Of a stretch of 47,953 bases of DNA, positions 13,268 through 22,886 are shown one piece after another. Origin of the DNA: Gemmataceae bacterium (GTDB lineage: Bacteria > Planctomycetota > Planctomycetia > Gemmatales > Gemmataceae); the NCBI GenBank assembly GCA_009692065.1, contig SHZY01000030.1, forward strand, positions 1 to 47,953. Reading direction: 5' to 3'. Made by a program: the position numbers and the translations under genes. The stretch's first letter is position 1; the number at the start of each line of letters is the position of its first letter. The notes beneath the pieces were generated by a model. The model ran no database searches, was not told where the DNA came from, and worked only from the letters and a program-made list of their open reading frames with translations.

Positions 13268-15085
13268 ATGAATGCCATGACAAACGACCGCTGGCAACTG
13301 CGCGTCTACGATAGCGGCCATCTTTACGTCGCTGACCTGACCGGCAGCGCCGAGATTGGCCGGCAGCAAACCAACGACGAAGTCCAGCCGTCGCACACCC
13401 TCCAGCACGACGGCTGGCGCGTAGTCATCGCGCCGGTCGAGGACATGTCAATCTCGCGCCAGCATCTGGAAGTCGAGCCGCTCACCGATGGCCACTTCCT
13501 GCTCTCCAACAAAAGCAACAAATTGCTCGTTGGACTGCCCGGCAACCAGAATCTGGAGCCCGGCGCGACCTCCAAGGTGTTACTGCCGATCGTGCTGCGC
13601 CTTGGCCGCAAGATGCTGCGCCTGCAACTCCCGCAGGCAGACGAGGATCTGAAGAACCTGCCGATGGCAACCTTGGCCCCCGGGGCGTCCTTGCTGCCGG
13701 GGCTGCGGGCGACCTTTGGCCAAGCGCAGGGCCAGGCGATGGATACCGACCAGTTGATGGCCTGGATCCAGGCGTTCCTTGGCTTGCTTCAAAGCGCGGC
13801 CGGCTCCGAGGACTTTTACGTCAAGGCCGCCTGTGCCCTCGTGGACCTCATCAAGCTCGATGCCGGCCGGGTGCTGTTTCGCACGGGATCGCAGTGGGAA
13901 GAAAAAGCGATGCACCTGAGTGCGCGACAGAAACCGCAACCGGAATGGCGCCCCAGCAGCCGTGTCTTGAGCAACGTGCTGCGCGACAAGAAGACGTTTT
14001 GGCAAGTGCCGGAGATGAGTTCATCGACCTATGGCCTCGACGCGGTGGTCGCCGCCCCGATTCTCGATCGCAAGGGAGACGTGATCGGGGCACTCTACGG
14101 CGAGCGGCGCTTAACCGGCAATGAATCGGGCGACCCGATCTCGCAGCTCGAAGCGATGCTTGTCGAAGTCCTCGCCAGCGGCGTGGCGGCAGGCCTGGCG
14201 CGCGTCGAGCAGGAACAGGCCGCCCTGCGCTCCCGCTTGCAAATGGAGCAATTCTTCACGCCCCGCCTCGCCGCCAAGCTGGAGGGTCATCCGGAGTTGC
14301 TCGTCGGACGCGACACCGAAGTCAGCGTCCTCTTCTGCGACATCCGCGGCTTCAGTCGCATCACCGAGAAGCTTGGCCCCGCCAAGACGGTGGAGCTGAT
14401 GTCGGATGTGATGAGCGTGCTGACGCAGTGCGTGCTGGATCGCGAAGGCGTCGTCGTCGATTACGTCGGCGATGAAGTGATGGCCATGTGGGGCGCGCCA
14501 GAGGATCAGCCCGATCACGCCGCCCGCGCCTGCCGCACCGCCTTGTCCATGTTCGAGGCCTTGCCGACCATCAACGAACGCTGGCAGTCGGTCGTCACCG
14601 AACCGCTCACCTTCGGCATCGGCATTTCGAGCGGCACCGCCCGGGTCGGCAATGTCGGGTCGCGGATCAAATTCAAATACGGAGCGCTCGGCAACACCGT
14701 CAACCTCGGCAGCCGGGTGCAGGGGGCGACCAAGTTCCTGAAAGCGTCGCTTCTGATCGCCGACGCCACCCGCGCCGGCCTCGACGACAGCTTCCACGTG
14801 CGCTGCTTGTGCCAGGTCCGCGTCGTCAACATCGCCAAGCCGGTGACGTTGTTCGAAATGGTCCCCCCCAACAAGCCCGGCTGGGACGGCCTGAAGCTCG
14901 GCTACGAACAGGGGCTCGCCGAGTTCATCAAAGGCGAATTCCGTCAGGCCTGCCGCATCCTTGGCCGAATGATCCTCGATCACCCCAACGACGGCCCCAC
15001 CTTGATCTTGCTGTCCCGCGCTGTCGCCTGTCTGGTCGAAAAGCCGGCCTCCTTCGATCCCGTGATGGTGCTAGACGGGAAGTGA
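13268..15085 (+). CDS. FHA-GAF-class III nucleotide cyclase
   Basis: This 605-residue cytoplasmic signalling enzyme has an FHA domain at about 5-115 (phosphothreonine binding; GSAEIGRQQ, DMSISRQHLEVEPL), a GAF domain at about 155-320, a class III cyclase catalytic domain at about 347-530 and a short TPR-like tail. Metal-binding Asp residues are D358 (VLFCDIRGFS) and D402 (VDYVGDEVMAMWG). The catalytic Asn/Arg block is conserved (GNTVNLGSR). The positions that normally recognise the purine do not carry the usual Lys and Asp/Thr: D398 and a Gly stand there instead, so ATP versus GTP specificity cannot be read off. Start is ATG 13268, with an alternative at 13277. The FHA suggests control by Ser/Thr kinases such as the one encoded next. 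Confidence 0.88.
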   Translation: MNAMTNDRWQLRVYDSGHLYVADLTGSAEIGRQQTNDEVQPSHTLQHDGWRVVIAPVEDMSISRQHLEVEPLTDGHFLLSNKSNKLLVGLPGNQNLEPGATSKVLLPIVLRLGRKMLRLQLPQADEDLKNLPMATLAPGASLLPGLRATFGQAQGQAMDTDQLMAWIQAFLGLLQSAAGSEDFYVKAACALVDLIKLDAGRVLFRTGSQWEEKAMHLSARQKPQPEWRPSSRVLSNVLRDKKTFWQVPEMSSSTYGLDAVVAAPILDRKGDVIGALYGERRLTGNESGDPISQLEAMLVEVLASGVAAGLARVEQEQAALRSRLQMEQFFTPRLAAKLEGHPELLVGRDTEVSVLFCDIRGFSRITEKLGPAKTVELMSDVMSVLTQCVLDREGVVVDYVGDEVMAMWGAPEDQPDHAARACRTALSMFEALPTINERWQSVVTEPLTFGIGISSGTARVGNVGSRIKFKYGALGNTVNLGSRVQGATKFLKASLLIADATRAGLDDSFHVRCLCQVRVVNIAKPVTLFEMVPPNKPGWDGLKLGYEQGLAEFIKGEFRQACRILGRMILDHPNDGPTLILLSRAVACLVEKPASFDPVMVLDGK

Positions 15086-19636: not shown

Positions 19637-20131
19637 GATGAGGCTCCGAAGGGTGTGAGTTTAAGATAACCGCGGCGGGCGTCAGATGCCAGGAATAAAA
19701 TCAAGAATTCTAGCGTGCCCGTCCGCGTGCGAAACTGCCGAGCGAGCAGTTCGGCTGGTCGCGATTGTTCTCACTTCGGCGCCGCCCGCCATTACGAATT
19801 TTTACTGATCGTCAGCAATCGCGCGATCGGCAAATCTTGGCAGATCAAAAGTTGTTCCTTCGAAAAAATTGACATTTCGAGAGTATCCCCACTAGGGTGC
19901 ATCTGTACAATACTCGCGGCGGGCACGATGCCGAGAATTGGAACGGACCTCCCCCAGCGCGATTTCCGCGCTGGCATTTCGCAACTAATCGTCACTGTTG
20001 AGCACTCATGCACTCCGCTTGCCGGTTAGCGCCCGCTAGTCGCCACGCGGGCGCTAAACGGTATTTGGGCAAATCGGATTTGCTTGCGCACTCGGCATGA
20101 GCTATGGTTTCGTCAGAATCGGTACAACGCT
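19637..20131. other. Divergent intergenic region upstream of the riboswitch
   Basis: These 495 bases have no convincing ORF. They contain an 8-bp perfect hairpin CCAGCGCG-ATTTC-CGCGCTGG at 19954-19974 and the 11-bp palindrome at 20026-20057. TTGACA occurs near 19870 and TACAAT about 33 bases further on, too far apart for a standard promoter pair. The transcription start for the riboswitch leader should lie here. Confidence 0.45.
20026..20057. repeat. Intergenic palindrome (TTAGCGCCCG family)
   Basis: TTAGCGCCCGC (20026-20036) pairs exactly with 20047-20057 across a 10-base loop. The core equals that of the 7772-7815 element. It lies about 75 bases before the riboswitch. Confidence 0.7.
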
Positions 20132-20238
20132 GATTCCCGATACCGCAAACCCACGGTGACGTGGGGACGCAAAGCCATGGACCAACAGCTGCCGCACCCC
20201 GTCGCGGCGCTGGTGGTCGCCAGGTTGCCGAAGGAATC
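20132..20238 (+). promoter_or_regulatory. Cyclic-di-GMP-I (GEMM-I) riboswitch in the subtilase leader
   Basis: Structure read directly: P1 is GATTCC (20132-20137) with GGAATC (20233-20238). The first internal hairpin is CCCACG-GTGA-CGTGGG (20150-20165) with a GNRA loop, preceded by CGCAAA and followed by GACGCAAAGCC (20166-20176). The second hairpin is GACCAACAGC (20180-20189) with GCTGGTGGTC (20209-20218), extended by GCCGC/GCGGC. The conserved tail is AGGTTGCCGAAGG. Compared with the Vc2 RNA of Vibrio cholerae, the ligand-contacting G20, A47 and C92 correspond to G20145, A20172 and C20228, and the 27-base G20-A47 spacing is identical. G at the first position favours c-di-GMP over 3',3'-cGAMP. 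The AAGGAA Shine-Dalgarno (20231-20236) overlaps the 3' P1 strand, six bases before the ATG spacer ends, which predicts an OFF switch on translation. Confidence 0.9.
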
Positions 20239-20243
20239 TTCTC

Positions 20244-22886
20244 ATGATTTTGTCCGAGCTTTGGCCATGGCACGGGTTCCGCGCCAAGAAAGTCCCTACA
20301 CGCCGCAATCCCACCGCCGCCCAGATGGCTGTCGAGCAGCTGGAAGATCGACTGGTCCCCACGCTGGTCGGGCCCTCCGATGCGGCCTATCAACTCTGGC
20401 GCAATCAAACGTTCAAGATTGACGATGCCAGCGTCGCCAGCTCGGTGATCCAGATGGCGAAGCCCACCGTGCAAGCGGCCGCTGCGCCGGCGAACGCCAG
20501 CTTCGGCGCCATGATCGGCTTGCCAGCGGTGTTTGCCAATTATCCGTATCGCGGCAACGGCTACAGCGTGGCGGTCATCGACACCGGTATCGATTACACC
20601 AACCCGAGCCTGGGCGGCGGCTTCGGCCCGGGGCATCGCGTCATCGCCGGCTGGGACTTCGCCAACAACGACGCCAATCCGATGGATGACAACGGCCACG
20701 GCACGCACGTCGCCGGCATCATCGGCAGCTCGAACATGACCTACTCCGGCGTGGCCCCCAACGTCAACCTCATCGCACTCAAGGTGCTCGCCGCCAACGG
20801 GACCGGCTCGTTCGGCAACGTCCAAAATGCGCTCGACTGGGTCGTCGCCAACCGCACCAAGTACAACATCGTGGCCGTCAACCTGTCGCTTGGCTCCGGC
20901 AACTACACGACGAATCCCTACACCTTCCTCGACCCCGAGTTCAGCAACCTGACGTCGAACGGCGTGTTCATCTCGGTCGCGGCAGGCAACAGTTTCTACA
21001 CCTACAACAGCGCCGTCGGCCTCGATTATCCGGCGGTCAATCCCTACGTCGTGTCGGTCGGTGCGGTTTACGACGGCAATTTCGGCCAGATCGCCTGGGG
21101 CTCCGGCGCTCGGGATTACACCACCGCTCAGGATCGCGTCGCCAGTTTCTCACAGCGCGGCTCCGCCCTCAGCATCATGGCGCCCGGCGCCATGATCACC
21201 AGCACCTACTTGAACAACACGTTCCAGGCGATGGCCGGCACGTCGATGGCCGCCCCGGTCATCGCCGGCGCTGCGGCCATCCTGCACCAGGCAATGGATG
21301 CCCAGCACCTCGCCGCCAACCAAACCACGATTCTGAGCGTCATGCGCTCGACCGGCGTCACCGTCGTCGATGGCGACGACGAGAACGACAACGTCACTAA
21401 CACTGGCCTGTCGTTCAAACGCATCCACCTGGCGGCGGCCCTTGGCTCTCTCGGCAATGGCAACCTGGCGCCGACCGTGCAGCCGATTGCGAACCAGAAG
21501 GTCGCGCCCGGCGGCACCCGCGTCATCACCCTCATTGGCAGCGACCCCGAGGGGAACCCGCTGTCCTGGTCGGCGAACGTCATCAACGCCTCGCAGACGC
21601 AGGCATACCAGCTCAAGCAGCAACTCGGCCTGACCTATGCCGGCTCGTACTACACCAACATCTGGGGCCAAAACGAGAAGTGGATGTCAAGCACGAGCGG
21701 CGCCTGGTACTGCATTGTGCCGAGCGGCGACCTGCGCCGCTGGACCGGCTCGATGACGACGACGATGCAAGCAGCCAATCTGGTCGCCACCCTCGGCGCC
21801 AGCTGCTACGCCGACCCAAGTCTGCTCTGGAACGCCCAGGAAGGCGGCGCGGGGCTGAGCGTGTCGGTGTCTGGCAATCAACTGACGATTCAGACCCCCG
21901 CCGGCGTGGAGGACAACTTCCAGATCCAGGTGACGGCCAGCGACGGCAAGCTGTCGGCCAGCCAGACCTTCACCCTCTCGACACTTTCCAACACCGCGCC
22001 GCAGATTGGCGCGATTGCAAACCAGGCGATGGCCACCGTGCGGGGCCGCACCATCACGCTGACTGCGACGGATGCCGAGAACAACGCGATTACCTACAAC
22101 GCGCGGATTGTCGGCGCCTATGCCAAGACGCCGGGCTGGCTCTTCGTCAAGGGCAATCAACTGACCATCTACACCTCGGCCAGGTACGTCGGCAGCTTCA
22201 CGGTGCAGGTGACGGCTTCGGATGGTTCGCTGACATCCAGCACAACGTTTGCCGTCAACGTGACGGCAGCACCGGTGGTGGCTTCCTACAAAGGCGATTT
22301 CAACGGCGACGGCACGCAGGATGCCGCCTACTTCCATCAAAACGGCGAGTGGTGGGTCAGCCTGAAACTGGCCGACGGGTCACGCACCAACAAAAACTGG
22401 TCCAACTGGGCGCCGGCTTCCAGCTGGAAGTTCACGGGCGTCGGCGACTTCAATGGCGACGGCAAGACCGATATCGTCGGCTTTGCCATCAGCGGCAGCT
22501 GGTGGGTCGGCCACTCCACGGGAACCGCCCTTTCGGCTCAGCTCTTGACCAGGTGGGCCGCGGCTTCCGCCTTTACCTTTATCCAGGTCGGCGATTTCAA
22601 CGGCGATGGCAAGACCGACATCGCCGGCTTCACAACCGGCGGCAGCTGGCTGGTGGGTCTCACCACCAGCAGCACCGTTCCCACCAAGCTGTGGGCCCAG
22701 TGGTCCGCCGCCTCCAACTGGCCTTCGCTCAGCGCCGACGACGTGAACGGCGACGGTAAACTCGACCTCATGGCTCGGGACAGTTTTGGGAAATGGTACG
22801 TCGCCTACTCCACCGGCACCGCATTCCGCATCGCGAGGTGGACCGCCGCCACGCCTCCCACTGCCGCCAAGACCGGCAGCGCCTAA
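20244..22886 (+). CDS. Secreted subtilisin-like (S8) protease with FG-GAP repeats
   Basis: In this 880-residue protein the N-terminus carries the planctomycete 'VEQLEDRLVPT' motif (30-40), seen on many large exported proteins of this group in place of a classical signal peptide. The peptidase S8 domain spans about 88-400: catalytic D113 (VAVIDTGID), H152 (NGHGTHVAG), oxyanion N249 (AAGNS) and S334 (AGTSMAAPV). Two cadherin/Ig-like modules follow (about 410-670). Four calcium-binding FG-GAP/VCBS-type repeats close the protein (GDFNGDGTQD, GDFNGDGKTD twice, DDVNGDGKLD). All catalytic residues are present, so an active extracellular or surface protease is likely. Its leader is a c-di-GMP riboswitch that covers the ribosome site. 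Confidence 0.93.
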   Translation: MILSELWPWHGFRAKKVPTRRNPTAAQMAVEQLEDRLVPTLVGPSDAAYQLWRNQTFKIDDASVASSVIQMAKPTVQAAAAPANASFGAMIGLPAVFANYPYRGNGYSVAVIDTGIDYTNPSLGGGFGPGHRVIAGWDFANNDANPMDDNGHGTHVAGIIGSSNMTYSGVAPNVNLIALKVLAANGTGSFGNVQNALDWVVANRTKYNIVAVNLSLGSGNYTTNPYTFLDPEFSNLTSNGVFISVAAGNSFYTYNSAVGLDYPAVNPYVVSVGAVYDGNFGQIAWGSGARDYTTAQDRVASFSQRGSALSIMAPGAMITSTYLNNTFQAMAGTSMAAPVIAGAAAILHQAMDAQHLAANQTTILSVMRSTGVTVVDGDDENDNVTNTGLSFKRIHLAAALGSLGNGNLAPTVQPIANQKVAPGGTRVITLIGSDPEGNPLSWSANVINASQTQAYQLKQQLGLTYAGSYYTNIWGQNEKWMSSTSGAWYCIVPSGDLRRWTGSMTTTMQAANLVATLGASCYADPSLLWNAQEGGAGLSVSVSGNQLTIQTPAGVEDNFQIQVTASDGKLSASQTFTLSTLSNTAPQIGAIANQAMATVRGRTITLTATDAENNAITYNARIVGAYAKTPGWLFVKGNQLTIYTSARYVGSFTVQVTASDGSLTSSTTFAVNVTAAPVVASYKGDFNGDGTQDAAYFHQNGEWWVSLKLADGSRTNKNWSNWAPASSWKFTGVGDFNGDGKTDIVGFAISGSWWVGHSTGTALSAQLLTRWAAASAFTFIQVGDFNGDGKTDIAGFTTGGSWLVGLTTSSTVPTKLWAQWSAASNWPSLSADDVNGDGKLDLMARDSFGKWYVAYSTGTAFRIARWTAATPPTAAKTGSA

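Follow-up and report, generated by a model that had tools for sequence, protein, structure and literature searches.

A class I riboswitch for cyclic di-GMP (c-di-GMP), also called c-di-GMP-I or GEMM-I, ahead of a gene for a secreted protease is already known in kind from zmpI of C. difficile, whose product (PPEP-1) is described as a secreted, adhesin-releasing protease under negative regulation by such a riboswitch (PMC6366702). The same source describes two class I riboswitches of V. cholerae that respond in opposite directions and, in that description, without termination. Here we describe a leader of this family in front of a subtilase-type protease gene of a planctomycete, at positions 20132-20250 of the forward strand of contig SHZY01000030.1 from a Gemmataceae bacterium (GCA_009692065.1); the whole stretch analysed, 47,953 nucleotides (nt) of this contig, is referred to as the window. 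By its covariance score the leader is a member of the c-di-GMP-I family, and it is a natural variant without the typical G at position 20 (numbering of the Vc2 aptamer). We infer ligand, affinity, direction and function of the switch, and consider it reasonably probable that it is a translational OFF riboswitch, most likely for c-di-GMP, with a weakened affinity and a raised threshold for protease shut-off.

Aptamer, orthologous leaders and the Shine-Dalgarno site

The initial annotation had read a complete GEMM-I architecture in this leader and proposed a search with the Rfam c-di-GMP-I covariance model. In an Rfam scan of the whole window this model (RF01051) matches at 20134-20232 on the forward strand with 57 bits (cut-off 35, E 1.2e-8), which is the only match in the window at gathering score, and P1, P2 with a GUGA (GNRA) loop and the conserved blocks GACGCAAAGCC and AGGTTGCCG are indeed all present. 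The score for the related model RF03167 (c-di-GMP-I-GGC), 52.2 bits, lies below its cut-off of 59. Plain single-strand folding of the whole leader was unremarkable (z -1.5, with 16 of 200 shuffled sequences folding equally well) and was rejected as evidence, so that the case for a riboswitch is carried by the covariance score and the orthologues.

Orthologues were searched with the protease alignment against 95 genomes of the family at E 1e-60. Fourteen genomes contain a match, 13 of which match from the first residues, and all these 13 N-terminally matching orthologues carry a c-di-GMP-I leader. Five further matches that were examined are partial or paralogous, and none of the three GEMM core strings could be identified in the surrounding DNA examined. 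More generally, RF01051 was found in 40 of 59 genomes (that of the window and 58 relatives), with 118 matches, of which 117 exceed the cut-off; the score of the window leader is toward the lower end of this set. Sorting by downstream content, done with motif rules and manual reassignment of 12 rows, divided the 118 leaders into 34 preceding Flp-pilin-like genes, 23 of a group termed type F, 19 of type E, 15 preceding trypsin-like proteases with a PDZ domain (trypsin-type), the 13 leaders of the window protease and its orthologues, and 14 others. The elements of the window leader are as follows.

20132-20139, forward strand: 5' strand of P1, GATTCCCG, with GATTCC in 13 of 13 orthologues
20140-20144, forward strand: J1/2, ATACC, with C20144 at the place of Vc2 G20
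20145-20170, forward strand: P2 with GUGA tetraloop, first pair G20145-C20170 (equivalent to Vc2 G21-C46)
20166-20176, forward strand: conserved block GACGCAAAGCC
20171, forward strand: A corresponding to Vc2 A47, conserved in all 13 orthologues
20173-20226, forward strand: P3 with extended hairpin, from the Rfam structure line
20222-20230, forward strand: conserved block AGGTTGCCG
20228, forward strand: C corresponding to Vc2 C92, conserved in all 13 orthologues
20229-20238, forward strand: 3' strand of P1, CGAAGGAATC, holding the Shine-Dalgarno (SD) site
20231-20236, forward strand: SD sequence AAGGAA, as read from the sequence, with GGAA paired within P1
20244-22886, forward strand: gene for an 880-residue subtilase-type protease with FG-GAP repeats

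P1 starts at the aptamer side with the pairs G20139-C20229 and C20138-G20230, followed by a bulge of two A residues (20231-20232) and the helix GATTCC (20132-20137)/GGAATC (20233-20238), while P2 consists of G20145-C20170, C20146-G20169 and CCCACG/GUGA/CGUGGG. The ATG at 20244 is spaced 8 nt from AAGGA. AAGGAA had been proposed to be both SD sequence and P1 strand, which is correct for the paired GGAA and not for the bulged AA. The overlap of P1 and SD is kept in every orthologous leader: in 13 of 13, P1 (GATTCC/GGAAT) captures the GGA of the SD site within the helix that is closed in the bound aptamer, as expected for translational OFF control, and the ATG follows 11-13 nt past the aptamer. 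By pair counts, all seven counted P1 pairs are identical across the 13 orthologues, and the first pair of P2 is conserved in 12. When SD strands of this group were cross-paired with 5' strands from the other groups, 1.7% of the combinations attained the median helix score of the group itself. Among the trypsin-type protease leaders, six of 15 have a P1 helix of 4-6 pairs over GGA, in some of them with other letters (CATCC/GGATG, TATCCT/AGGATA), which may be read as compensatory change about a fixed SD site. An overlap of this kind, CTCC/GGAG across the SD site, was also seen by eye on a Myxococcales contig (L228), and thus is not confined to planctomycetes.

The protease itself contains a PF00082 subtilase domain at residues 104-360 (142.8 bits) and FG-GAP repeats (60 bits), as identified with Pfam. 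Its candidate catalytic triad D113, H152 and S334, assigned by position in the subtilase motifs DTG, GHGTH and GTSM, is invariant in the alignment of the 13 orthologues. No signal-peptide-like stretch was seen and no Pfam family matched the first 52 residues, and the N-terminus has an LEDR motif, a type of N-terminus that we take to be an export mark of planctomycete extracellular proteins, suggesting that the protease may be exported. An NCBIfam scan of the protease gave matches below cut-off only.

Position 20 and the ligand-contact bases

Three canonical ligand contacts had initially been claimed, with G20145, A20172 and C20228 as equivalents of Vc2 G20, A47 and C92. The last of these assignments is correct; the other two are each displaced by one base, since P2 starts at G20145-C20170, so that the preceding base C20144 corresponds to G20 and the next base A20171 to A47. 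Residues of the Vc2 pocket are reported to include G14, G21, C46 and A47 (PMC9049102), and for a cyclic GMP-AMP (cGAMP) riboswitch a J1/2 ending in A14, followed by a P2 starting with C15-G40 and then A41, has been described (PMC6274999). The RF01051 alignment places C20144 in the conserved G column, while the RF03167 alignment has a deletion there. As judged from base identity, the window leader thus has the A47 and C92 equivalents of the c-di-GMP-I pocket, but C instead of G at position 20.

This substitution is not peculiar to the window. Position 20 could be read in all 118 aptamers, and position 47 could be read by rule in all but six. In the 13 orthologous leaders position 20 is A in six, C in four and G in three, with the A47 and C92 equivalents unaltered throughout. 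These 13 genomes contain 55 other aptamers, 52 of which have G at this position; non-G bases are therefore found in 10 of 13 protease leaders against 3 of 55 (Fisher 2.4e-7, ignoring kinship). The six leaders with A all come from one genus, and hence represent fewer events than the counts suggest. Beyond the orthologous group G is found in 100 of 105 aptamers, and a wider scan with a fixed P2 pattern found at least 112 matches outside the group, those listed having 98 G, 12 A and 2 C. Of the two listed matches with C, one is a trypsin-type leader from the same genus; the other lies on an Armatimonadetes contig (L152) and is the only non-planctomycete C at position 20 among them. The C92 equivalent is C in 117 of the 118 aptamers. 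The 5-nt length of J1/2 was also considered as an unusual feature and rejected, as 52 of the 118 aptamers have the same length.

In Vc2 the double substitution G20A/C92U is reported to raise the dissociation constant (KD) from 0.011 nM to 4900 nM (PMC9049102), and G20 has been described as contributing to selectivity without being a hard filter (PMC9262584). A literature value for the effect of C at position 20 was not found. With the guanine-reading base G20 replaced by C here, and by A or C in most orthologues, the affinity for c-di-GMP would be lowered relative to canonical aptamers. In the predicted fold, GGTA at 20121-20124 is able to pair with TACC at 20141-20144 in J1/2, a pairing that could explain why positions 19 and 20 of the window leader are both C.

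Proposed mechanism and alternative explanations

Two further elements are located upstream of the aptamer or overlap its first strand.

20080-20108, forward strand: promoter-like TTGCTT and TATGGT separated by 17 nt, implying a putative transcript start near 20115
20116-20136, forward strand: 5' hairpin GAATCGGT/GCTGATTC of 8 pairs, predicted by folding, sharing GATTC with P1 (anti-P1)

The predicted 5' hairpin and P1 both use GATTC and are mutually exclusive, and the hairpin begins approximately at the transcript start implied by the promoter-like pair. This pair is absent from the listing of a generic sigma-70 scan; a motif defined post hoc, TTGCnn-17-TATRnT, is found in 12 of 13 orthologous leaders, in 10 of which the distance from the end of the -10 element to GATTCC is 23 nt. 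A folding-based scan covered 104 of the 118 leaders, after exclusion of rows lacking a P1 helix or with short upstream DNA, and found a comparable hairpin in 11 of 13 orthologous leaders; at the same score the numbers are 4 of 34 for pilin, 1 of 20 for type F, 0 of 8 for trypsin-type and 9 of 19 for type E leaders. In constrained folding, GGA is never open when P1 is forced (13 of 13 leaders), and is open with probability 0.06-0.54 when the hairpin is forced (the 11 leaders with a hairpin). Prior to ligand binding, folding predicts the hairpin state to be more stable than the P1 state by 0.6-11.5 kcal/mol in these 11 leaders (3.6 in the window).

We propose that the transcript would begin near 20115 and that, without ligand, its first 20 or so bases would form the hairpin that sequesters the 5' strand of P1, leaving P1 open and the SD strand within reach of ribosomes. 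A cyclic dinucleotide seated with A20171 and C20228 would then lead to closure of P1 by strand exchange, by which the GGA of the SD site would become locked in a helix and no protease would be made. The OFF direction is the natural reading of such an arrangement, in which the predicted 5' hairpin competes with P1. If c-di-GMP is held more weakly than by canonical aptamers, protease shut-off would require a higher threshold than that at which the remaining c-di-GMP-I leaders of these genomes, such as the pilin leaders, respond.

The genome of the window encodes two GGDEF proteins whose canonical site carries Asp, and has three hits for HD_5 (PF13487), a family that we take to include HD-GYP domains; EAL phosphodiesterases were not found in it. 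A third GGDEF hit, encoded at 13268-15085 on the forward strand of the window, was rejected as a diguanylate cyclase, as it scores 73.8 bits as a class III adenylate/guanylate cyclase versus 27.9 bits as GGDEF. With its 27.9-31 bits as GGDEF, this class III cyclase could mislead automated counting of diguanylate cyclases. In seven genomes of the genus, including that of the window, 25 GGDEF places were found, of which seven are unreadable at the relevant site (two cut short and five weak matches of 25-32 bits); the class III cyclase of the window is among the weak matches. All 18 readable domains have Asp at the site occupied by Ser in the cGAMP-producing Hypr enzymes (Ser348, PMC6456294). Accordingly no Hypr-type GGDEF was identified in these seven genomes, although the genome of the window is 94% complete and a miss is possible. 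A SMODS nucleotidyltransferase was likewise not found in the seven genomes, several of which are incomplete; other synthase families were not searched. The synthase families searched yielded an enzyme for no cyclic dinucleotide other than c-di-GMP, which is most likely the ligand.

These data bear directly on the possibility that the aptamer has changed its ligand, with A or C at position 20 suiting another nucleotide or dinucleotide such as 3',3'-cGAMP, and control by c-di-GMP having been abandoned in this branch. The G20A variant of Vc2 binds 3',3'-cGAMP, many Geobacter GEMM-I RNAs are reported to read this compound (PMC6274999, PMC7288161, PMC6456294), and A is the position-20 base in six of the 13 orthologues. 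However, the genus shows Asp rather than the Hypr Ser and no SMODS within the limits given above, the known cGAMP riboswitches do not have C at position 20, and three orthologues have kept G, so that we hold a change of ligand to be unlikely. The prevalence of non-G bases at position 20 (10 of 13) and the comparatively low score of the window could also fit an aptamer that has decayed or become insensitive, in which case P1 and the 5' hairpin would act only as a static leader structure tuning translation or the stability of the RNA. Hairpins at a transcript start can protect RNA, and the 5' hairpin lies at the start implied here. Decay should, however, also have led to loss of A47, C92, P1 and GACGCAAAGCC, all of which are invariant in the 13 orthologues, and of the first P2 pair, which is retained in 12; this explanation appears improbable to us. 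Finally, since class I c-di-GMP riboswitches are described as ON or OFF switches (PMC6366702), the ligand might free the ribosome site, for instance by undoing a helix between GGAATC and GATTTT in the first codons. The predicted ligand-free fold of the window does pair GGAATC with 20246-20251, and GGA is mostly closed in the predicted ligand-free ensembles. Yet closure of P1 consumes the same GGA, such that a bound state with closed P1 cannot expose it, and the first codons vary among the orthologues; an ON switch is therefore considered very unlikely.

Several observations weigh against a translational OFF switch with the 5' hairpin as its alternative state. The hairpin is missing in two of the 13 orthologues, and pair counts revealed no excess of covariation in it over shuffles (87.5% of cells paired). 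With the hairpin forced, openness of GGA is at most 0.35 in nine of 11 leaders and only 0.09 in the window, because GGA can pair with other bases, e.g. those of the first codons, and as GGA remains mostly closed the ligand-free state is not clearly open. A predicted preference for the hairpin of up to 11.5 kcal/mol is perhaps too strong for switching, and binding may have been lost altogether through the change at position 20. P1 shows no covariation within the 13-leader group, as it does not vary at all, and the evidence there is therefore one of conservation and not of covariation. In the trypsin-type leaders, 7 of 15 have no P1 helix and two have three pairs in the register used, while 78% of the cross-pairings with 5' strands of other groups attain the group's own median, so that for the trypsin-type group in its entirety the overlap of P1 and SD cannot be regarded as established.

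Other c-di-GMP-I leaders and comparison with known systems

The genome of the window has four RF01051 matches, one of which is below cut-off. This sub-cut-off aptamer (31.7 bits; L149, contig C222) belongs to the pilin group, and the pilin encoded downstream, the one gene of the group on which Pfam was run, matches PF04964 with 31.2 bits (cut-off 32.2). In 33 of the 34 pilin leaders an ATG, chosen by motif, is located 90-377 nt downstream of the aptamer. Leaders of the c-di-GMP-I family may thus control Tad-type pilins in Gemmataceae and relatives. The trypsin-type group (L119, L142 and 13 further loci) precedes genes for a trypsin-like protease with a PDZ domain, as found by Pfam in two of the 15. 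In 12 of these 15 aptamers the first pair of P2 is C-G instead of G-C, all 12 having G20, a compensatory exchange adjoining the ligand pocket.

Type F leaders (23 loci) share a conserved 3' extension, GAGCCCGTCCGTCCCCGG ... CTTGCCTTGCTTTT, and the one in the genome of the window (L146, contig C34) is followed by a gene for a metallo-beta-lactamase-fold hydrolase. Type E is represented in this genome at L001:1501-1664 (contig C83) and at 18 further loci. Here the aptamer is followed by a conserved GGACGGGACCCGTAAGTATGCTTGGT or a close variant, and in 16 of 19 cases by a hairpin resembling a terminator, whose T run ends 62-83 nt past the aptamer. The first long open reading frame (ORF) beyond is reversed in 12 of 18 loci and co-oriented in six of 18; in six loci its product has a C-terminus of one kind (LGRLRxLID), and in the genome of the window it encodes a 371-residue protein matching PF03641 with 87 bits. 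Type E may represent a stand-alone or antisense-acting c-di-GMP RNA. For comparison, merRNA of Bdellovibrio was, according to its authors, not found outside that lineage (PMC3627812), and antisense-acting c-di-GMP riboswitches have been described (PMC9943018). RF03167 is the best-scoring model at 17 of 25 loci scanned (L017, L022, L024, L027, L030, L045, L087, L089, L102, L111 and others). The leaders of these groups have A at position 47 nearly throughout where readable, unlike the G of the RF03167 consensus, and the choice of model alone would therefore misname these aptamers.

More tentatively, the leaders of this one protease in 13 Gemmataceae genomes might form a natural position-20 variant group (C-A-C and A-A-C at positions 20, 47 and 92) with a retuned threshold or ligand, in which the 5' hairpin sets the switching point. 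If so, the pilin, trypsin-type and possibly stand-alone aptamers of the same cells stay nearly all canonical, and one signal could act stepwise, on adhesion first and on protease shut-off last. Position 20 bears on the cyclic-dinucleotide preference of GEMM-I RNAs, and G, A and C at this position in an otherwise mostly fixed pocket would constitute a natural series on the evolution of ligand choice and threshold. The data also point to a c-di-GMP network in Gemmataceae in which Flp-like pilins are joined with two families of proteases and possibly with stand-alone RNAs. No account of planctomycete riboswitches of this kind was found in the open-access papers searched; to that extent the leader in planctomycetes, its series of bases at position 20 and the 5' hairpin are new.

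With the RF01051 aptamers (GEMM-I; Vc2, Cd1) the window leader shares the covariance match, the three helices, the GNRA loop and the equivalents of A47 and C92, while it differs in the C at position 20, in the preceding predicted anti-P1 hairpin and in the use of P1 over the SD site as expression platform. RF03167 belongs to the same clan as RF01051 and is the best-scoring model for seven of the 12 other orthologous leaders, but its consensus has G at positions 20 and 47, neither of which is found in the window. The GEMM-Ib cGAMP riboswitches (Geobacter pilM and pgcA) have A20, as do six of the 13 orthologues, and are described with a P2 opening by C-G (C15-G40), as in 12 of 15 trypsin-type leaders. 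The window, in contrast, has C at position 20, no Hypr GGDEF was found in the genus, and the pilM riboswitch is reported to use a terminator (PMC9262584). A further parallel is with C. difficile zmpI, where a class I c-di-GMP riboswitch also precedes a protease gene, the product being secreted in that case and putatively exported here. As described, class I switches of C. difficile act by transcription termination, and the zmpI product is a zinc metalloprotease, whereas for the window we propose occlusion of the SD site in front of a subtilase-type protease.

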